Shown: in pieces, positions 6,457 to 28,540 of the stretch
Numbering within the stretch: position 1 is the first letter of the stretch
Layout: the number at the start of each line of letters is the position of its first letter
NCBI GenBank assembly: GCA_031273325.1
Contig: JAISSB010000040.1
Span: forward strand, 1-35,719
Direction of reading: 5' to 3'
Origin: Treponema sp.
GTDB taxonomy: Bacteria; Spirochaetota; Spirochaetia; Treponematales; Breznakiellaceae
Length of the DNA stretch: 35,719 nt
Translations under genes and position numbers: made by a program
The notes under the pieces: generated by a model
Databases searched by the model: none
What the model saw: the letters and a program-made list of their open reading frames with translations, nothing else
What the model was told of the DNA's origin: nothing

Positions 6457-8652
6457 CTATGAAGAAACCTTAAAGCGGGAAACTTCTTGCATCAGGGTGT
6501 CTATCTGCCGCTTCGTTTCTCCGCTTATCTCGGTAACCCGATAGACTGCTCCGTTGATCTCCTCTGCTCCTACCGCCATCTCTTCCATTCCGTCCCCTAT
6601 CTCTTCTGTTATCTGTTCGAGTCCCCTACTTACCTCAAACACGCTGTGGCTTGCTGTCCGCATGGTCTGCGCGCCGTTCTGTACTTGAGCAGATAGTTCA
6701 TACAACCGGTTTATTGATTCGAGAATCTGGGTGCTTCCTTTCCGCTGTTCTTCCATGGCGGTGCGGACATTGCTTTCCTGTTCTGTTACCGTCCGCACGC
6801 CTTCCCCTATCACGGTGAATCCCTGCAATACCATATCTGTTGAACTCGTAATCTTTTCTATGGAGCTTTTTATGTTTTTCAGGACACCGCTGATCGTCTT
6901 CGACTGTTCACTGGAAGATTCTGCAAGTTTTCGGATTTCATCTGCAACGACGGCAAAACCTTTCCCGCTCTCTCCTGCGTGTGCTGCTTCAATGGCAGCA
7001 TTCATAGACAGCAAGTTCGTTTGGCTGGCGATGCTTTCCATAACGGCGTTTATCTCCAAAAGACCTGTAGATTCCCGGGCAATCGTTTGAATGTCAGCGG
7101 ATACTGTTTCCAAACCGGTGCGTCCTTTTTCTGAAGATTCCGCAAGCCGAATTACGTTCTCACTGTTCTTTATCAGGGTTTGCGTTACACTGTTGATATT
7201 CGCAAGCATCTGCTCTATTGCTGAAGAAGATTGGCTTACACAATCGCTCTGCTCGTGAATCTGAGCATTTAAAGTATCAATCCCCTCGACAACGTTGCTC
7301 ATAATTGAACCTGCTTCTTTGACGTTTTTCCGTTGATTGCCGACTTGGGTCTTGATGTTCTGGATCGTTGCAGTGATCTCGGTGATGGAACTGGCAGTTT
7401 GGGTCATGTTTGAAGCAAGCACAGTGCCGGTATGGGAAAGTCCATCTGCTTCCTTTTTGATAGCAAGGACGAGTTTTTTTATTTTAGTTATCGTAAGGTT
7501 GAAATAATGAGCGAGGTCACCGATTTCGTCTCGCATGATAAGCGTGATGGTTTTAGTCAGATCGCCTTCACCTTCAGAAATGTTTTTAAGCAGTGATGAG
7601 AGGGTAGTTATGGGACGGCTGATAGAATAGGTGATAATAAGAATAATACCAGCGGACATCAGCAGGACGGTGAGGATTCCAATGATAATACTGAAATGAA
7701 GCATGCGATAGACGGGTGCCATAATCGTGTTCCTTGAGACGCCGACAACGCGCGACCATGGTTTAAGTTTCTGACCAATGGTAAAGGGAACAGCATAGTA
7801 AAGAATAATTCCCCCCCCCCCCCCATTCACGGAAGGCACAGAAAAACTCACAGACTTTCCGGTGGTAACAGCGTCGACGATGGTATTGAGGGACTCGCCG
7901 AATGTGTCACGTTCAGATTCCCGCATATCCTTTCCAAGCCGCTCCGAATCAGGGTGGGCGGCAACACTTCCACCACTACTGAAGACAAATGCGTAACCGT
8001 CGCCGAAGGGTTTAATCTCATTGGCAATGGCTTGTATTCTGGATAATTCAAAAGCTATGCCGGTGATTCCCACCATTGTGCCATTATCTTTTACGGGAGT
8101 ACACATATTTACTGCTAAAAAGATATTATTTTCTATGACTCGCACTTCAGGTTCAAATACGAATTCTTCTCCTCCGGTTACGTGCATAACCGCTTCAAAG
8201 GGGAAACCAATAATAGGCACTAAAAGAGGTCCATCAGGGGTATTTACCCAGCCCGGTATATACCGCCCGGTCTCATCGGTTCCTGGGGTATTGGCGTATT
8301 CTGCATCCATACCGTCCAGAGCATTTGGCGCCCAGTTCGCATAGACGCTTGCTATTTCGGGATGTGCAATAGCCGTCTGTTTCATCATAAAATTGAATTG
8401 CTCTCGCCGTTCCTCAGTCGGTATATCCTTATAACCTTCTATAATATCTGCGAGAGTTCGTGCCGTTTCTCTATAGGTACCAAACCAGTTTTTCATTTCT
8501 TCAGTACCTTTCTGAGCAAGACTGTAAGCTTGTTCTTCCGCAAGCCTGCTGATTTCTCTGCGCGCCAAACTCACGGTAACTCCGGCGAGAATGCCAATGC
8601 CGATTATATTGAAGATACTGATAAGACTAACAAGCTTAACCCCGATTTTCAT
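6457..8652 (-). CDS. Methyl-accepting chemotaxis protein with periplasmic Cache sensor
   Basis: This is a 731-aa receptor. The start at 8652 is preceded by GAAGGAGAGGAACT, so I prefer it to a longer reading from 8685. TM1 is at residues 8-30, followed by a large periplasmic double-Cache-like domain (about 35-315, with [14 protein letters not shown] and [17 protein letters not shown]). TM2 is [13 protein letters not shown] at about 325-350, then a HAMP segment ([24 protein letters not shown]). The signalling hairpin tip is conserved ([20 protein letters not shown], with [16 protein letters not shown]). It should signal through CheA/CheW. The codons for five glycines in the sensor (SVNGGGGGI, about residues 277-281) are a run of 14 G, in frame in this assembly. 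Slippage would truncate the protein before TM2, so the receptor is probably phase variable. Confidence 0.95.
7811..7824 (-). repeat. G14 homopolymer inside the chemotaxis receptor gene
   Basis: There are fourteen C on the plus strand (G on the coding strand) in the Cache domain codons. Runs of this length are prone to slipped-strand mispairing, and the gene is in frame only at 14 or at lengths differing by three. Confidence 0.9.
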
Positions 8653-8734
8653 AGTTCCTCTCCTTCTTTTCTGACCTACTGCCATACTAATGGATAAGAA
8701 GAAGGTTGTCTATTTCTGACCTTTGGTAGGTCTA

Positions 8735-9185
8735 GGGGGATAGTCCCCAAGGAGGTCTGTCCCCGTTGTCAGGAATCTGTAATTACAGAGGTCTGTCCCT
8801 ATTCGTCGGAAATCTGTAATTACAGAGGTCTGTCCCCGTTGTCAGAAATCTATAATTACAGAGGTCTGTCCGTTGTCAGAAATCTGTATTACAGAGGTCT
8901 GCCCATTGTCAGAAATCTGTAGTTCAGAGGTCTGTCCCTATCCGTCGGAAATCTGTAATTACAGAGGTCTGTCCCCATTGTGAAATCTGAGTTTAGAGGT
9001 CTGCTCGTTAGTCGGAATCTGTGGTTCGTAGGTCTGTCCCCGTTGTCAGGAATATGTAGTTCAGAGGTCTGCCCATTATGAAATCTGAGTTTAGAGGTCT
9101 GTCCATTATGAAATCTGAGTTTAGAGGTCTGTCCCCATTAGTCAGAAACCTGTAGTTCAGAGGTCTGTCCCCATTCGTAGAAATC
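8735..9185. repeat. REP-like tandem field, 13 degenerate 30-38 bp units
   Basis: Thirteen units run AGGTCTGTCCCCGTTGTCAG then AAATCTGTAATTACAG, with deletions in some. Each carries GGTCTGTCCCC and, in the better copies, the palindrome CTGTAATTACAG. The same core occurs in the opposite orientation at 10857-11024 and elsewhere in the window. I see no gene between the receptor start and 9270. Confidence 0.85.
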
Positions 9186-9202
9186 TGTCTTTCGGGTATC
9201 AC

Positions 9203-9250
9203 TTTTAAGCTGGATCGGGTACACTTTCAAGGTGGATCGGGTACCTCGCC
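9203..9250. repeat. Two direct repeats just upstream of the vWA gene
   Basis: AAGCTGGATCGGGTACACTTTC and AAGGTGGATCGGGTACCTCGCC stand in tandem about 20 bases before the start of the vWA lipoprotein gene. They could be an operator or part of the neighbouring repeat field. Confidence 0.5.
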
Positions 9251-9269
9251 TGATAAAAAGGAGATAATT

Positions 9270-10856
9270 ATGTATCGAGTGGTAGTGCTGTTTATGATTG
9301 TGGTATTGAGTGCGTGTTCTCAGAAGAGAGGTCCTCAAAATCAATATGCTGCGTATGAGTCTAGTAACAGGATGGGGCTTAATAGAACGGCGGAAGTTGC
9401 GGATTCCAGTGGAGCGTTTTTCTTTGAAAAAAATGAAAAGAATGGGGACGGTGTCGTATTCAACACGGACGAGTTTGACCATATTGAAGATAATCCGTTT
9501 GCACGGACAGCGCAGAGTCCGCTTTCAACCTATTCAATAGATGTTGATACTGCCGGCTATGCGATTGCCCGCTCGTTTATTGAGCAAGGCATGTTGCCGC
9601 CGCCGTCTGCTGTCCGTATCGAAGAATTGATTAACTATTTTGATTATGACTACCCGCTGCCCGCCGACGGTCAACCGTTCAGCGTCAACACCGAACTCGC
9701 ACCGTGTCCATGGAATCCCGCACATCTTTTGGCACGGATTGGTATTCGGGCGATAACGTTTCCGGTCAATCACCGTCCTGCGGTTAATCTCGTGTTCCTC
9801 ATTGACGTATCTGGTTCTATGGATAATCCCAATCGCTTGCCGCTCGTGCAGCGTTCTCTGACGATGCTCGTTGATGCATTGCAGCCGACCGACCGGATCG
9901 GCATTGTGGTATATGCGGGAGACTCGGACGTTGTATTGTCTCCAACGGCAGTAGACAATAAAAAAGTCATCCTCAACGCTATTAAAAAACTGAAAGCTAA
10001 TGGCTCTACTGCTGGCGGAGCAGGGATTCAACATGCCTACGATTTGGCTGAGCAATATTTTGATCCTCAAGGTGTCAATCGGGTCATACTGTGTACGGAC
10101 GGCGATTTTAATGTGGGAATAACGAACCGAAGCGACTTAATCGATCTAATCAAACAAAAAGCAGAATCAGGCGTGTATCTGACGATACTTGGCTTTGGTA
10201 TAGGGAATTTCCGTGACGGGACGCTCAAGCAGCTTGCAACGAAAGGGAACGGTAATTACGGGTACATTGACACCTTCAACGAGGCACGGAAGATACTCAT
10301 TGAGCAATTGGAAGGAACGTTGGTTACTGTGGCAAAAGACGTGAAGATTCAAATAGAATTCAACCCTGCTGCCGTTGAAGCGTATCGATTGATTGGCTAT
10401 GAAAACCGTGTTCTGTCTACCGAAGCATTCAATGACGATACGGTGGACGCCGGCGACATCGGTGCGGGACACACTGTTACAACCTTTTATGAACTGATAC
10501 TGCCCGGAGAGTTAGCGCCGGTTGACCCGCTCAAGTATTCGACCACAACGAATAACGCGGACTATGGCGACGAGCTTTTCACCGTGCAGATCCGTTACAA
10601 AGAGCCGCAACTCCTCAGCAGCAACCTCATCACTGTTCCCGTTAAGGCGCAGACTGTTCAAATATCTCCGTCCATTGATTTTAATTTTGCAGCGGGAGTA
10701 ACCGCCTTTGGTATGCTGTTGCGGGACAGCCCTTACAAAGGAACGGCAAGTTTTGCTATGGTTCAAACTATGGCAGAGCAATCACTCGGAACCGATCCCT
10801 ATAGGTATAGAGCGGAGTTTATACGCCTTGTCAATCGGGCGCGCACCATTAAGTAA
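9270..10856 (+). CDS. von Willebrand factor A domain lipoprotein (YfbK-like)
   Basis: This 528-aa protein has a lipoprotein signal peptide (VVLSACSQ, Cys at residue 16). The start has AAGGAG at a good distance. A YfbK-type N-terminal domain follows (PLSTYSIDVDTAGYAIAR, then VRIEELINYFDYDYP), then a vWA domain at about 170-350. The vWA domain has a full MIDAS: DVSGSM (DxSxS), the Thr/Ser loop STAGGAGI and CTDGDFN. The C-terminal region (YGDELFTVQIRYKEP, then NFAAGVTAFGMLLRDS) matches the DUF3520-like tail of the family. It is probably membrane anchored; the function of this family is not settled. It is isolated between two repeat fields and converges on the next lipoprotein gene. Confidence 0.92.
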   Translation: MYRVVVLFMIVVLSACSQKRGPQNQYAAYESSNRMGLNRTAEVADSSGAFFFEKNEKNGDGVVFNTDEFDHIEDNPFARTAQSPLSTYSIDVDTAGYAIARSFIEQGMLPPPSAVRIEELINYFDYDYPLPADGQPFSVNTELAPCPWNPAHLLARIGIRAITFPVNHRPAVNLVFLIDVSGSMDNPNRLPLVQRSLTMLVDALQPTDRIGIVVYAGDSDVVLSPTAVDNKKVILNAIKKLKANGSTAGGAGIQHAYDLAEQYFDPQGVNRVILCTDGDFNVGITNRSDLIDLIKQKAESGVYLTILGFGIGNFRDGTLKQLATKGNGNYGYIDTFNEARKILIEQLEGTLVTVAKDVKIQIEFNPAAVEAYRLIGYENRVLSTEAFNDDTVDAGDIGAGHTVTTFYELILPGELAPVDPLKYSTTTNNADYGDELFTVQIRYKEPQLLSSNLITVPVKAQTVQISPSIDFNFAAGVTAFGMLLRDSPYKGTASFAMVQTMAEQSLGTDPYRYRAEFIRLVNRARTIK

Positions 10857-11027
10857 AAAGGGACAGACCTCCGAGTAAAAAGGGACAGACCTCCGAGTAA
10901 AAGGGGACAGACCTCCGAGTAAAAGGAGACAGACCTCCGAGTAAAAAGGGACAGATCTCTAAGTAAAAAAGGGACAGACCTCTAAGTGAAAAGAGACAGA
11001 CTCCTGAAGAAAAGGGACAGACCTCAA
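10853..11027. repeat. 22-bp REP-like tandem array, 8 units
   Basis: The unit AAAAAGGGACAGACCTCCGAGT begins within the last codon and stop of the vWA gene and repeats eight times with increasing decay. The orientation is opposite to that of the 8735-9185 field, so the vWA gene is bracketed by inverted repeat fields. Confidence 0.88.
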
Positions 11028-11030
11028 TAA

Positions 11031-11060
11031 AAAAAGCCTGCCGTAAACGGCAGGCTTTTT
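11031..11060. terminator. Bidirectional intrinsic terminator
   Basis: A perfect 13-base stem with a four-base loop (AAAAAGCCTGCCG, TAAA, CGGCAGGCTTTTT) lies between the convergent vWA and lipoprotein genes. Confidence 0.93.
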
Positions 11061-11077
11061 CAGTTATAAAACTGTAA

Positions 11078-11758
11078 TTATGGAGTAGCTGGTTTTTTGA
11101 TGTCTACTGCACTGTAATCAATCTTGTAGGTTACGGTGTCACCGCTTTTCGGCTGGGTTACATAAAGGGTAATCACTTTGGACTTAGCGCCGCCCCAGAG
11201 GACAATGTCAAAACCGCCAAGTGAAGCAGGTGCATAGGTATTTGCATCATAGTCCTTTTCCCGGTAGACATCGTCTGAGCCGTAGTCAAATGTGACGCTT
11301 GTAATGGGCGTCTTCCAGGCATTAAGGCCTTGATTGTACTGCTTGATGTGACCTTCTTTTGTAAGATCTACCACACCGGTGATAACAAAGGCCGAAAAGC
11401 CTTGTGCTATCGCGTCTGTCTTAAGGAGATCAGTCGCTGATTCCGCATCTTTGTCGTCGAACATATCATAGTACACATCAGAGTTGGCAGGAATAGCAAT
11501 TTTGGTGGCACTGTCCACAGCAACAGTGCTTCCCGCCAACTTGATCGTAATGATGCCGGTCTTGTTGCTCTTTTGTGCAGAGTCAATGCTCAAGTTTGCA
11601 TTAACTTTAGCTGCTTCAGTAGTACTTGGAAGGCTGTAGCTTGCCTTAACATCGGTAAAGGTTTCCTCGTCCGACTTTTCATCATCATCTTTGCAGGCGA
11701 AGAACACGACACTCATTGCCATAACAAGGGCAAATCCAAGATAAAGACTCTTTTTCAT
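11078..11758 (-). CDS. Unrecognised surface-type lipoprotein
   Basis: This is a 226-aa protein with a signal peptide ending VVFFACKDDDE, a spirochaetal type of lipobox with the lipidated Cys at residue 22. An acidic tether (DDDEKSDEE) follows. The rest is rich in Ser, Thr, Asp and Lys and looks like a beta-strand-rich domain, with no motif I can name. The start is clear: GAGGAGG eight bases before the ATG. The gene ends at a bidirectional terminator. A long inverted repeat lies about 65-125 bases upstream of the start and could take part in its control. Confidence 0.8.
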   Translation of the reverse strand: MKKSLYLGFALVMAMSVVFFACKDDDEKSDEETFTDVKASYSLPSTTEAAKVNANLSIDSAQKSNKTGIITIKLAGSTVAVDSATKIAIPANSDVYYDMFDDKDAESATDLLKTDAIAQGFSAFVITGVVDLTKEGHIKQYNQGLNAWKTPITSVTFDYGSDDVYREKDYDANTYAPASLGGFDIVLWGGAKSKVITLYVTQPKSGDTVTYKIDYSAVDIKKPATP

Positions 11759-11822
11759 AAAGGAGTCCTCCTCATAAAATACTACCCACCCTAAAAAGGT
11801 GGATTCTATAAAAAAGAGGAGA

Positions 11823-11882
11823 ACACGCAGTACATTGACATATTAGGGATTTTTACTCTATGTTTATCAATGTACTACGTGT
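11823..11882. promoter_or_regulatory. Long inverted repeat upstream of the lipoprotein gene
   Basis: The arms ACACGCAGTACATTGA (11823-11838) and TCAATGTACTACGTGT (11867-11882) are complementary at 15 of 16 positions, with a 28-base centre. No T-run follows on either strand, so it is unlikely to be a terminator. It is a candidate operator, attenuator or mobile-element end. Confidence 0.6.
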
Positions 11883-11901
11883 ACAAAACTCCGTAGTCAG
11901 G

Positions 11902-12120
11902 TTAAGTTTGGACTCTTTTGCTGGCTACGGTCCTCTTTAAAAGACACATAAAAAAGCAGATTATAATTCTGCTGTCTGTATATACAGTACTATACCGTGT
12001 AATTTCTGTTTTACCACTATTATTTTTAATCTTTTCAAAAGCTTGCTCCTTTATAATACTGCACCGTGAAAACTTCTCCATAGAAATGCATACAATTACC
12101 GCTCCGTTTTCTGTAGTCAT
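11902..12120 (-). CDS. Doubtful small ORF downstream of a poly-C tract
   Basis: This is a 72-aa frame beginning MTTENGAVIVCISMEKFSR, with no recognised domain and only a weak ribosome-binding site (GGAT nine bases upstream). It is listed because a 14-base homopolymer lies about 50 bases before its start, a position where length changes could alter a promoter. It may equally be non-coding. Confidence 0.2.
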   Translation of the reverse strand: MTTENGAVIVCISMEKFSRCSIIKEQAFEKIKNNSGKTEITRYSTVYTDSRIIICFFMCLLKRTVASKRVQT

Positions 12121-25039: not shown

Positions 25040-25273
25040 AATGGCTCCTTTTGGATAAGTTTGAAAGTATCATATATGAAAAGCGGGGAATTAACAAGGG
25101 GATGTTGACACAAGATAAGAACGTATTGAAAGAGGTGGGCGGAGGTTTTGCGTGGGAATAAGCGAAGCGAATGCCCGAACCGCACGGAAGCCCGAACCGC
25201 CTACGGCGGCAAGGGCAAGGGGACAGACCCCCACGTTAAACAGGGACTGTCCCTGAATCCCCACGACATTTCT
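25040..25273. other. Non-coding region with palindromes and REP-like cores
   Basis: It holds CCGCCTACGGCGG (25198-25210), the same palindrome found in the cassette-boundary repeats at 26592 and 27736, and a GGGGACAGACCC / GGGACTGTCCC pair at about 25219-25254. There is no convincing gene. Confidence 0.5.
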
Positions 25274-26102
25274 TTACCGCGCCCTGTAGCTCCACCTATT
25301 GCCGTTGTAGGTATACGTTCCCGCCTTTCTGCCGTTGCGGTTGTAATAGGCGGTCAGCTCATGGTCAAATGCAACATCATCAACTTCTACATTCGTTCCA
25401 ATAGTAACACTGGTCAGTTGATTCTCTTCAAACGCCCACTTCCCAATAGTGGTAACTGAATTGGGGATGTTCATGCGGGTCAGTTGATTCTCCGCAAACG
25501 CATGAGACTCAATAGTGGTGACCGAATTGGGGATGTTCACGCTAGTCAGTTGATTATCTGCAAATGCCGCCTTCCCAATAGTAGTAACCGAATTGGGTAT
25601 GTTCATGCGGGTCAGTTGATTATTCATAAACGCCCCTTGCTCAATAGCGGTAACTGAATCGGGTATGTTCACGCGGGTCAGTTGATTATTCATAAACGCC
25701 CCCCTCAATAGTAGTAACCGAATTGGGTATGTTCATGCGGGTCAGTTGATTATTCATAAACGCCCCTTGCTCAATAGCGGTAACTGAATTGGGCATGTTC
25801 ACGCGGGTCAGTCGATTATTATAAAATGCCCCAAACTCAATAGTAGTAACCTTTTTTGGAATACTCACGCTGGTCAGATTTTTACTCTGAAACACTTTAT
25901 CTGCAATAGCGGTAACAGGACTTCCCTGTAACCGCGCGGGGATAACGACATTCCCGCCGTTTCCCCTATACCCAATGAGGACAAGTCGTCCATTCTCTAC
26001 TCTTGATTCAAAGTCGCTCTCATTTTGAGCGTAGACTGTTAAGCATGCAGTAACCGTTAAGCCTACGGCAGCCGCCAATAATACCATAATAACTTTCTTC
26101 AT
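25274..26102 (-). pseudogene. BspA-like leucine-rich repeat (LRR_5) protein, frameshifted or phase variable
   Basis: The start at 26102 follows AGGAG. A signal peptide with a possible lipobox (VGLTVTAC) leads into a TSVSIPKKVTTIEFGAF-type domain and then 22-residue repeats (NQLTRMNIPNSVTTIGKAAF), about eight in all, ending with a YNRNGRKAGTYTYNGNRWSY tail. Near 25695-25700 the repeat has GAGGGGGGCG where sister repeats have GAGCAAGGGGCG. The frame is lost (EGGVYE, stop) and the rest continues in another frame. Loss of one G from the G6 run would restore the protein. Such proteins are surface adhesins in oral treponemes and Bacteroidetes. It may be a true pseudogene or an off-phase gene. Confidence 0.82.
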
Positions 26103-26364
26103 AAGAAACTCCTTTTTTTGTATCTTTACGGAATCAAGTCCCTCCACAAGCCTTTCCTGCCTATAAAATCCCTATTCTATCAACTTTTTGGCGTATGTTG
26201 AGAGAAGAACTTTGTACGTAGAGGGGACAGACTTCTGAATCTATCTCAGTTTGATGGAGACGTAAAGATATGGATTCTGGCAGGAAGACGGTACGAGTGA
26301 AGCATCATAGTAGGACGGTGTTTAATCTGATTCCAGTAAGGAATCAAACTGGTACTCCTTAAGC

Positions 26365-26390: not shown

Positions 26391-26590
26391 ATTCAAGGGG
26401 ACAGACCTCTTTCGCATACCGTTCCGGCTGCTTACGAGGTTTGCCACCCTTCATTAGCCTAGCTGCGTAAAGCGGTGTTACAGCAACGGTTCTTGCTCGA
26501 TTAAATAATGAAAAAGCATGATTATGGATGGCATCGATATAGTCTGGATTTAGTTGTAAAGCTTTATCATAATCAGTTATACGTAGCCGA
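26389..26590 (-). pseudogene. TPR gene fragment inside the cassette-boundary repeat
   Basis: The minus strand reads DYDKALQLNPDYIDAIHN, a textbook TPR helix pair, then a basic stretch ending MKGGKPRKQPERYAKEV and a stop at 26389. There is no start; the frame meets a stop just upstream at about 26600. The GGKPRKQPERY part recurs at 28372-28410 and, degenerated, at 27650-27680. Confidence 0.6.
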
Positions 26591-26628
26591 GCCGCCTACG
26601 GCGGCTTACGCATACAGACCCGTTAGGC
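26405..26628. repeat. Cassette-boundary repeat, copy A (attC-like)
   Basis: Imperfect palindromic ends are GCCTAGC-T-GCGTAAAGC (26457-26473) and GCTTACGC...GTTAGGC (26604-26628). GTTAGGC fits the integron core GTTRRRY. A further palindrome CCGCCTACGGCGG lies inside. The left part (26415-26497) is nearly identical to copy C, the right part (26584-26625) to copy B. The centre holds a TPR fragment. Confidence 0.5.
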
Positions 26629-26653
26629 GCTGTACAGGCGTATACAATTATGC

Positions 26654-27547
26654 CTATTCTGTTTTTTTATTAAATTTTGATGTTAATACATTTTGAAAAT
26701 CTTTATCCAATAAAAAAATTTCATTCTTTGCATTAATTGCATGATTACCCAATAAAACATCTTTTGTAAATTCGATGCTTAACATAAGATAAAATATAAC
26801 AACAAAAACAAAATCGGGTAATTGTTTCAACTTACCGATCTTCAAAGGGGTTATTGGTATTCCGGCTTTTTCCACTGTATATAAATTATTTTTTAAATCT
26901 GATGCAATATGGCGAAGAATATATTTGCTTTTCGCCGTTTTTATATCCACAATACCATTATCTGTATAAAAATGTTTGTTTGTGATTGTTACCGCAGCGT
27001 GTGTAATATGAAATGCTAAAATATTATTTGCGATTTCAATGGGTATACCGGATAATTCAAATAATTTTAAAAGCCCTTTTATCCGTTCTGTTATTTCTCC
27101 ATTGATTTCGCCAAATATTGTTTTTTGTACGTTTTTTGAACCAATTTGAGCATATAATATATCCTCTTTTATATCACCACCGGCACCGGGAAAACCTGGA
27201 ATCAATTTATCTCCGATAATTTCAACCCAGCGATTATATCCTACAGAATTGCTCATAGTAACAATATTTTTGCTTTTATTTTGTTTTAATATCTTTAAGG
27301 CACTTTCCATTTGATCATATCTTACTGGAACAAATATATAGTCATAAATATCATTATCATCAAGTTTGTCTATTACTTTTATTAATACCTTTTTTATTAT
27401 TCCTTTATCGTTATATAACAACCCCTTTTGTTTCAATGCTTCCAATCTTTTTCCACGAGCATATAACGTAACATCAAGATTTGCCAATGAAAATTTGGTT
27501 GCATATAGGCTGCCGATAACTCCCGCGCCAAAAATCAAAAATCTCAC
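26654..27547 (-). CDS. Ketopantoate reductase-like (ApbA/PanE family) oxidoreductase
   Basis: This 297-aa protein has the Rossmann dinucleotide fold at its start: RFLIFGAGVIGSLYATKFS (GxGxxG) and ARGKRLEALKQKG, which selects NADPH in the family. YIFVPVRYDQMESALKIL and the IVTMSNSVGYNRWVEII segment follow the family order. The catalytic Lys and Asn of true PanE are not clearly conserved, so the substrate is unknown. The gene is much more AT-rich than the surrounding transport and enzyme genes, lies between related repeats, and looks like an acquired cassette. Confidence 0.78.
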   Translation of the reverse strand: MRFLIFGAGVIGSLYATKFSLANLDVTLYARGKRLEALKQKGLLYNDKGIIKKVLIKVIDKLDDNDIYDYIFVPVRYDQMESALKILKQNKSKNIVTMSNSVGYNRWVEIIGDKLIPGFPGAGGDIKEDILYAQIGSKNVQKTIFGEINGEITERIKGLLKLFELSGIPIEIANNILAFHITHAAVTITNKHFYTDNGIVDIKTAKSKYILRHIASDLKNNLYTVEKAGIPITPLKIGKLKQLPDFVFVVIFYLMLSIEFTKDVLLGNHAINAKNEIFLLDKDFQNVLTSKFNKKTE

Positions 27548-27644
27548 ATTTTACCCCTTTTTCCATAATTATTAAAAATTATAATGCTGTATTTTTTATT
27601 TAATGTCCAGTGCTTTGGCAATTTATTCAAACATTTTAGCCCGT

Positions 27645-27772
27645 ATTGTAGATCCGTTTCGGCTGTTTACGAGATTTGCCAAGGCAAATAAGGACTTTGC
27701 GGAGTAAAGACCAAGGCTGACAAAATGTAGCCGAGCCGTCTACGGCGGCTTACGCATACAGACCTGTTAGTC
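27645..27772. repeat. Cassette-boundary repeat, copy B (attC-like)
   Basis: GTAGCCGAGCCGTCTACGGC and GGCTTACGCATACAGACC then TGTTAGTC (27727-27772) match copy A with a few changes. The other arm (GGACTTTGCGGAGTAAAG, 27692-27709) corresponds to GCCTAGCTGCGTAAAG. The end bases co-vary: GACT with AGTC here, GCCT with AGGC in copy A. The palindromic core spans about 80 bases. Confidence 0.5.
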
Positions 27773-27788
27773 GCAGTTTTGGCTGCTT

Positions 27789-28253
27789 TTATTCTAATTG
27801 CTCCCATGTAGTTTTACCATTCTTCCGAATACGTAATACTCCCCACATTACTGCAATACCTATTAAACTCCATAAACTTTGTATAAAATTCAAACCTATT
27901 GCCATATTAAGTATTAATGAAACAATTGAAAGGCCAATGAATACCCAAATCCCAATTTTTTTCCAACATAATAACAGAATACTACCAATGACTGCACCCA
28001 TTGAAACAAGTCCATAAAGCATCATCAATTCATTGGAAATATCATAATATTGAGTAATCATTTGTGGTGTAAACATATAAGATGTCCCTACAATGGCATT
28101 ACATATCAATGTAAATATTAAATAAAAAGAGGTAAATCCGTGTCTTTTTTTTTCATTGGTATTCACAGTTGTTACCGACACAATGCTGACTCCGCATTTG
28201 GGACAAAATTGAGCATCATTTCCAATTTCCATGCCACATTTTTCACAAAACAT
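27789..28253 (-). CDS. Zinc-ribbon protein with four membrane segments
   Basis: This 154-aa protein starts MFCEKCGMEIGNDAQFCPKCG, a double CxxC zinc ribbon of the common membrane-anchored type. Four hydrophobic segments follow: FYLIFTLICNAIVGTSYMF; LYGLVSMGAVIGSILLLC; GIWVFIGLSIVSLILNMAI; and SLWSLIGIAVMWGVL. A short basic tail ends it. Function is unknown. It is AT-rich, in the same orientation as the preceding cassette gene, and bounded by repeat copies B and C. Confidence 0.82.
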   Translation of the reverse strand: MFCEKCGMEIGNDAQFCPKCGVSIVSVTTVNTNEKKRHGFTSFYLIFTLICNAIVGTSYMFTPQMITQYYDISNELMMLYGLVSMGAVIGSILLLCWKKIGIWVFIGLSIVSLILNMAIGLNFIQSLWSLIGIAVMWGVLRIRKNGKTTWEQLE

Positions 28254-28371
28254 TATTTCTCTCCTATCAATTTATTTAATATTACAATATGAAACGTTTA
28301 TATTGTCAAAAATTATATATATTTTGTCAAGTTTATTTTTATAAAATTTCAAAAAATTTCAGCTCAAATTG

Positions 28372-28540
28372 CACATACCGTTCCGGCTGCTTACGAGGTT
28401 TGCCACCCTTCATTATTACGGCATAGCCATACCTAAGCCTAGCTGCGTAAAGCGGTGTTAACAGCAACGGTTCTTGATGCAAGTGCGTTGCTCGACGGTG
28501 TGAGCGTGGCATATACGGCTAAGCAATGCGTTTAACTTGA
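28372..28540. repeat. Cassette-boundary repeat, copy C (partial)
   Basis: CATACCGTTCCGGCTGCTTA through GGTTTGCCACCCTTCATTA and GCCTAGCTGCGTAAAGCGGT repeats the left part of copy A with a 20-odd-base insertion. The right part (GGCTAAGCAATGCG, then TTTAAC) is diverged. It abuts the 3' end of oppF. The stretch 28254-28371 is AT-rich without a gene. Confidence 0.55.

Follow-up and report, generated by a model that had tools for sequence, protein, structure and literature searches.

A decayed array of three attC-like sites and two gene cassettes was found in the window, by which we mean the whole 35,719-nt stretch of Treponema DNA analysed (contig C81 of a 1.82-Mb genome that is 81% complete). The region is very probably the fossil of an integron-like cassette-capture system that used a different recombinase. 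Although the system is integron-like in its working, it is not an integron by the criterion of the integron integrase (IntI), which is defined by an additional (I2) domain (PMC2426708), held to be unique and to be needed for the extrahelical bases of attC (PMC4792948). No prior description of this cassette system was found in the literature searched, from which preprints and most subscription papers were excluded. A sequence-only reading of the window had proposed a possible integron-type array, and the idea was right in kind and wrong in detail.

The features of the window are collected in the table. The sequence-only reading had located three related repeat blocks (A, B, C) around two AT-rich genes of one strand, and their positions and relatedness are confirmed. 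Blocks A and C share stretches of 47 nt at 96%, 34 nt at 88% and 16 nt at 100% identity, and blocks A and B have 51 nt in common at 92% at the GTTAG end; both genes lie on the minus strand and match the Pfam families expected of an ApbA/PanE-like and a zinc-ribbon protein. A covariance model built from other loci only, without the window, still matches A and B, so the repeats are not due to chance.

Table. Features of the decayed cassette array in the window (positions within the 35,719-nt stretch).
Feature	Position	Strand	Evidence
Element C, degenerate attC-like site	28372..28476	-	profile match 28372-28402; identity to A; ...CAGCCGGAACGGTATGTGCAAT
Cassette 1 (zinc-ribbon gene)	27765..28378	-	sequence read against the cassette-end rule
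Zinc-ribbon membrane protein gene, 154 aa	27789..28253	-	PF13240, E 3.1e-6
Element B, shortened attC-like site, ~118 nt	27655..27772	-	covariance model match 27655-27766, E 5.4e-9
Cassette 2 (ApbA/PanE-like gene)	26623..27655	-	sequence
ApbA/PanE ketopantoate-reductase-like gene, 297 aa	26654..27547	-	PF02558, E 2.8e-15
Element A, attC-like site	26413..26629	-	covariance model match 26413-26628, E 4.4e-6
Element fragment D, model positions 25-99	25138..25210	-	covariance model, E 1.1e-4

All three sites are damaged. Element A is over-long, as the sequence-only reading had supposed, through a foreign TPR-like fragment (about 26497-26582) that interrupts it; B is a shortened copy of the full element and not a core of about 80 bases; and C, rightly described as incomplete, retains mainly one half and forms the upstream (gene-direction) edge of the array. 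The boxes GTTAGGC and GTTAGTC picked out earlier are real, but their orientation has to be reversed: read on the minus strand, in the gene direction, they are the first boxes (R'') GCCTAAC of A and GACTAAC of B. The partner boxes then assigned to them (GCCTAGC and GGACT) lie inside the block, and the pairing of GCCTAGC with GTTAGGC was dropped because relatives show the partner box at the opposite, far left end (the CCGTTCCGGCTG side). The sequence at that end is GCATAACG in the relatives and, in the window, GCATACCG in A, GTAGATCCG in B and CACATACCG in C. The R' box reads GGTATGCG in A, and its GTT is mutated in B (GGATCT). Elements A and B retain the TAAC of the first box, but none of the three sites has kept the GTT triplet, which reads GGT in A and C and GGA in B. 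The zinc-ribbon cassette is bounded by a decayed terminal inverted repeat, GGTATGTGCAATTTGAGCTG and the reverse-complemented end GTTAGTCGCAGTTTTGGCTG, in which the cassette-end rule described below is still visible, including an A-versus-G at position 11; in the ApbA cassette the repeat is mostly decayed and the rule is hardly visible.

No recombinase of the new family was found in the genome of the window or in three other genomes of the genus. Together with the loss of GTT from every site, this indicates that the window copy is dead. The sequence-only reading would have counted a lack of intI against itself; neither intI nor any other integrase was found in the window's genome, yet arrays elsewhere adjoin another recombinase. 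Full-length elements are present on other contigs of this genome, and DNA similar to the repeat blocks recurs on further contigs of it. Among 60 family genomes about half carry such DNA, and a single contig very often has several copies spaced 0.8-1 kb apart. The ApbA/PanE-like gene has no relative in 59 other family genomes, and no ortholog of the ABC operon flanking the array was found in three other genomes of the genus. On the simplest reading, the window is a fossil array whose lineage has lost the recombinase, or whose metagenome-assembled genomes (MAGs) miss it.

Several further observations were made around the array. A BspA-type leucine-rich-repeat (LRR) gene at 25274-26147 is split into two overlapping frames, likely by a frameshift; it sits between element A and fragment D and is perhaps a third, dead cassette, and fragment D, after this pseudogene, is a possible further site. 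A AAGGGGACAGACC-type motif resembling a REP-type repeat occurs at 25216-25229 and 26394-26407 and on about eight other contigs of the genome. No match to the integron-integrase model was obtained in the four genomes of the window's genus (G000-G003) or in G017, although XerC and XerD normally give one as well, as they do in all 14 controls; G017 has no PF00589 match either, and this lineage may lack XerC/XerD.

In relatives, the intact element is about 175 nt long (range ~161-184 nt among aligned copies) with three hairpins. In the gene direction it reads RYATAAC-AGG(A/T)-CTGTTTACG, then the three hairpins, then CGTAAACAG-CCGGAAC-GTTATGY, and it carries the R'', L'', L' and R' boxes and the AAC and GTT triplets typical of attC, with AAC/GTT ends and with TAAC and GTTA invariant in 42 relative copies. 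Among these 42 aligned copies, 41 of the 59 base pairs show pair-keeping changes on both sides; this covariation is matched in none of 500 shuffles, and slid versions of the structure drop from 86% to about 40% paired. RNAalifold alone misses the R stem, since its two sides are supplied by neighbouring cassettes. Typical copies fold as single-stranded DNA with z of -6.8 and -7.3, and the only asymmetry seen consists of a bulge, a 1x5 internal loop and the position-11 mispair.

The covariation noted by the sequence-only reading does exist, between the two ends of a cassette and not inside the block. Over ~18 nt, each cassette begins with the reverse complement of its own final bases and not of those of its neighbours; the mean complementarity score is 9.77 within a cassette, compared with 2.40+/-0.18 when partners are shuffled and 2.64 when the two sides of a single element are compared. 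Among 93 cassettes, positions 5-10 and 12-18 are complementary in 81-97%, whereas position 11 agrees in 4%, with A at the cassette start and G on the reverse-complemented end. Positions 13-18 are unconserved between cassettes, yet they pair within each. This 18-bp rule with its fixed mispair is absent from three classical arrays: end complementarity stops at position 8 in the T. denticola integron, and at positions 8-11 in Vibrio and Calditrichia arrays with true IntI. When the rule was used as an independent predictor of the start of the first cassette, and hence of the attI-like site, such a site was predicted in 13 of 14 recombinase-linked arrays with 15-17 of 17 matches, the sole miss being L208 (11/17). 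It lies mostly 127-283 bp after the recombinase stop codon (range 58-498), and in one example its arms are ATTCGCATAA-AAGGAG-TTATGCGAAAT. An attI beside the recombinase is a feature of the relatives and not of the window.

The extent of the mobile unit is visible in G064, a genome of 4,059,867 bp in one contig that we take to be T. primitia ZAS-2. Its elements separate single genes or overlapping pairs, all in one direction; a PemK/MazF toxin and a Fic/Doc protein are encoded among them, and a small ORF precedes each of these two genes. The two copies of a duplicated cassette are identical through the gene and the downstream element; identity begins at about the upstream G|TTATATG, ends at the downstream G|TTATG and is lost outside both junctions, except for conserved element bases near the upstream one. 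These limits identify the unit as a gene plus its 3' element, with the junction at G|TTA; G|TT is also the position of cleavage by IntI. A lone element at G064:C1:485417-485588, 1.5 Mb from the arrays, represents a single-site insertion outside an array. The 93 cassettes, drawn from many genomes, have a median length of 770 bp, with 35 nt between the stop codon and the end of the cassette, and their longest ORF runs in the array direction in 86 cases and in the opposite direction in 2. The 88 cassette proteins scanned matched 105 Pfam families, with GNAT acetyltransferases the commonest and PemK, Fic and PIN also represented.

Intact arrays in relatives adjoin a gene for a tyrosine recombinase of ~395 aa, located upstream of the array and in the same direction, in which the catalytic R, K, H, R, H and Y are all intact. 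At one locus (L104, G032:C136) it faces the array from the far end, opposite to every other array seen. There is one recombinase per genome as a rule, and elements are present in 46 of 49 recombinase-positive genomes; their co-occurrence over 130 genomes is only suggestive (P = 0.066, Fisher's exact test), because many MAGs have elements without recombinase. In G031, presumably T. azotonutricium ZAS-9, two broken or partial recombinase copies and five elements were observed (L201, G031:C1:1975000-1993000, and G031:C1:3779642-3780245). A published study reports that T. primitia and T. azotonutricium both lack any trace of integrons (PMC3607928).

The stretch corresponding to the IntI additional domain spans 12 residues in 9 of 9 insertion-less proteins, compared with 43-44 in three true IntIs, and TIGR02249 matches the recombinase in two pieces with a score of 204 against a cut-off of 265. 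In the phylogeny, 12 IntIs and 16 Xers form clades with 100/100 support each, and the new recombinases, not resolved as a single clade, fall outside both. Thus the recombinase is neither an IntI nor a Xer. Scores against the Xer models are likewise below their cut-offs (XerC 177 of 335 bits, XerD 178 of 330, XerA 215 of 220). Nevertheless, XerA and the archaeal Xers (5hxy, 4a8e; NF040815) are, with VchIntIA, the best whole-core relatives in fold and sequence, the predicted core fitting XerA (Z 23.4) and the Vibrio integron integrase (Z 20.7, rmsd 4.2), and like the new recombinase they have no I2 insertion. These Xers are chromosome-dimer resolvases acting at dif, and we know of no cassette arrays associated with them. 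The N-terminal ~80 residues are predicted to form a small alpha/beta domain with weak fold matches to mismatch-recognition domains of MutS (Z up to 5.9) and damage-recognition domains of XPB (up to 5.5), and with matches to viral HepA/SMARCAL1-like and MutS-like models (probability 0.87-1.0, E 0.014-0.1); Pfam gave no match to it, and HARP is absent among its solved-structure matches. Domains of the MutS, XPB and HARP kind bind distorted DNA, and from the predicted structure an N-terminal domain with such binding would fit a stem with a fixed mispair.

The covariance model, with no more than 20 candidates scored in any genome, detected the element in 112 of 130 family genomes. Copies of the element follow one another head to tail at intervals of about 0.8 kb, and the intervals hold one or two co-directional genes. 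The earlier suggestion of a small or relict array of a treponeme-specific cassette system was therefore close to the truth, as arrays of one- or two-gene units recur across the family. The model also matches several other Spirochaetota families. It has no match in T. denticola-group genomes, near true intI loci or in the T. denticola arrays L218 and L220, and the element is absent from the family genomes with true IntI (G025, G030). The attC sites of T. denticola, 63-68 bp long (PMC3607928), are simple hairpins of ~65 nt in our analysis, and the analogy drawn by the sequence-only reading to the integron of that species does not hold.

Named genomes were also scanned with the recombinase profile and then searched for repeat arrays. 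An insertion-less recombinase followed by an array was found in Winogradskyella ursingii, Seonamhaeicola aphaedonensis, Algibacter onchidii and Flavobacteriaceae S0862. Their elements are ~134 nt long with covarying stems and number 27-49 per genome, with none in the Vibrio or Aquiflexum controls. Their cassette ends pair at positions 1-9, mismatch at 11 and then pair again, position 11 being mismatched in 20 of 20 cassettes, with A at the start in all 20. The treponeme element model did not find these elements, and the N-terminal domain of their recombinases gave no confident alignment. The same search procedure also recovered classical arrays, in Calditrichia, a betaproteobacterium and Vibrio, and all of these have the IntI insertion. 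At another locus (L111, G056:C12:213000-225000), five ~70-nt repeats 0.8-2.4 kb apart (6523-11948) directly follow an insertion-less recombinase; they are unlike the family element and are possibly a further type of site. Insertion-less IntI-like recombinases were also seen at L117, L119, L126, L141, L143 and L147, with archaea and Firmicutes among the hosts, and in plasmid matches H1-H15, including Sinorhizobium, Klebsiella and Aeromonas plasmids; many repeats are present at L119 and L141 as well.

The system shares with integrons a tyrosine recombinase beside attI, arrays of single-gene cassettes, AAC...GTT sites, the G|TT junction, R-box complementarity between the ends of one cassette, and toxin-antitoxin and GNAT cassettes; in the T. 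denticola integron the integrase also has the direction of the array. It differs in that the recombinase has its own N-terminal domain instead of the IntI additional domain, the sites are ~175 nt with three hairpins rather than the simple stems of 57-141 nt that form classical attC, and the cassette ends are complementary over 18 bp with a fixed mispair at position 11. The sole other reaction named as resembling cassette recombination is the integration of CTXphi by XerCD (PMC4792948). That reaction likewise involves a hairpin single-stranded site and a recombinase without an I2-like domain, but it concerns one phage and host recombinases, with no arrays and no dedicated integrase.

Unit boundaries, end complementarity, covariation, attI position, recombinase adjacency and the lack of the IntI additional domain are computational observations, and they suggest the following picture. 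In intact arrays, a recombinase consisting of the core and the N-terminal domain is encoded upstream of the array, and the attI-like site in most cases lies 130-280 bp past the stop codon of this gene. Each cassette comprises TTAKRYGNAAT, one or two genes and the ~175-nt element, joined at G|TTA. In the excised circle, the cassette ends would come together in an 18-bp stem that has a single fixed mispair, at position 11, and that extends the R stem; farther on, the structure would continue with an asymmetric internal loop, then an L stem bulged by one base, and finally the three hairpins. The insertion-less recombinase presumably performs the cassette exchange, probably acting on the element in the form of folded single-stranded DNA. 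Strand selection, the task of the I2 helix in IntI, may here fall jointly to the mispair, the bulge and the HARP/MutS-I-like N-terminal domain. We regard it as probable that the arrays represent a second kind of integron, independent or ancestral, in which I2-less recombinases read the fixed mispair in the cassette-end stem via an added structure-specific DNA-binding domain. This kind would be widespread, in the sense of most of this spirochaete family, other Spirochaetota families and some Flavobacteriaceae.

Clusters of attC without an integron integrase are known as CALINs (PMC9024848), and the window and many relatives likewise have sites without recombinase, although the sites are not classical attC. 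The arrays could accordingly be the remains of ordinary IntI integrons whose integrase has been lost or lies elsewhere, as the R''/R' boxes, the junction and the cassette content would also allow. This is very unlikely, given that the neighbour is an insertion-less recombinase wherever the start of an array is visible, that family genomes with IntI and true-intI loci lack the element, and that neither the short hairpin of T. denticola attC nor the ends of the three classical arrays resemble what is seen here.

Two other origins appear slightly less credible still. Each unit could be a small transposon that lands beside others of its kind and is mobilised by a transposase in trans, with the recombinase a bystander; 18-bp terminal inverted repeats do exist, and the window also holds REP-like GGGGACAGACC repeats. 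However, the units share one junction and abut head to tail with all genes one way, the repeat differs between units while matching within each, and the first unit begins at a fixed place after the recombinase gene. About equally improbable is that the element is primarily a structured RNA or the transcript end of a cassette, with arrays formed by homologous recombination between repeats. Its strongly covarying three-hairpin structure and its location just after each stop codon would suit such a role, but no Rfam family matched it, and homologous recombination would neither place the junctions at one base pair nor keep cassette ends complementary over the unconserved positions 13-18.

The integron-like system with an insertion-less recombinase occurs commonly in one spirochaete family, probably of the gut, and has a look-alike in marine flavobacteria. 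Searches for integrons rely on the IntI additional domain and on classical attC models, so a system without both is invisible to standard surveys, and a bacterial way of collecting genes appears to have been overlooked. The I2 domain has been held to be the innovation that enabled single-strand cassette recombination, a claim that I2-less arrays make testable, as they offer either a pre-I2 stage or a second solution. Through them, gut spirochaetes and marine flavobacteria also become a source of large cassette collections that are as yet unread.
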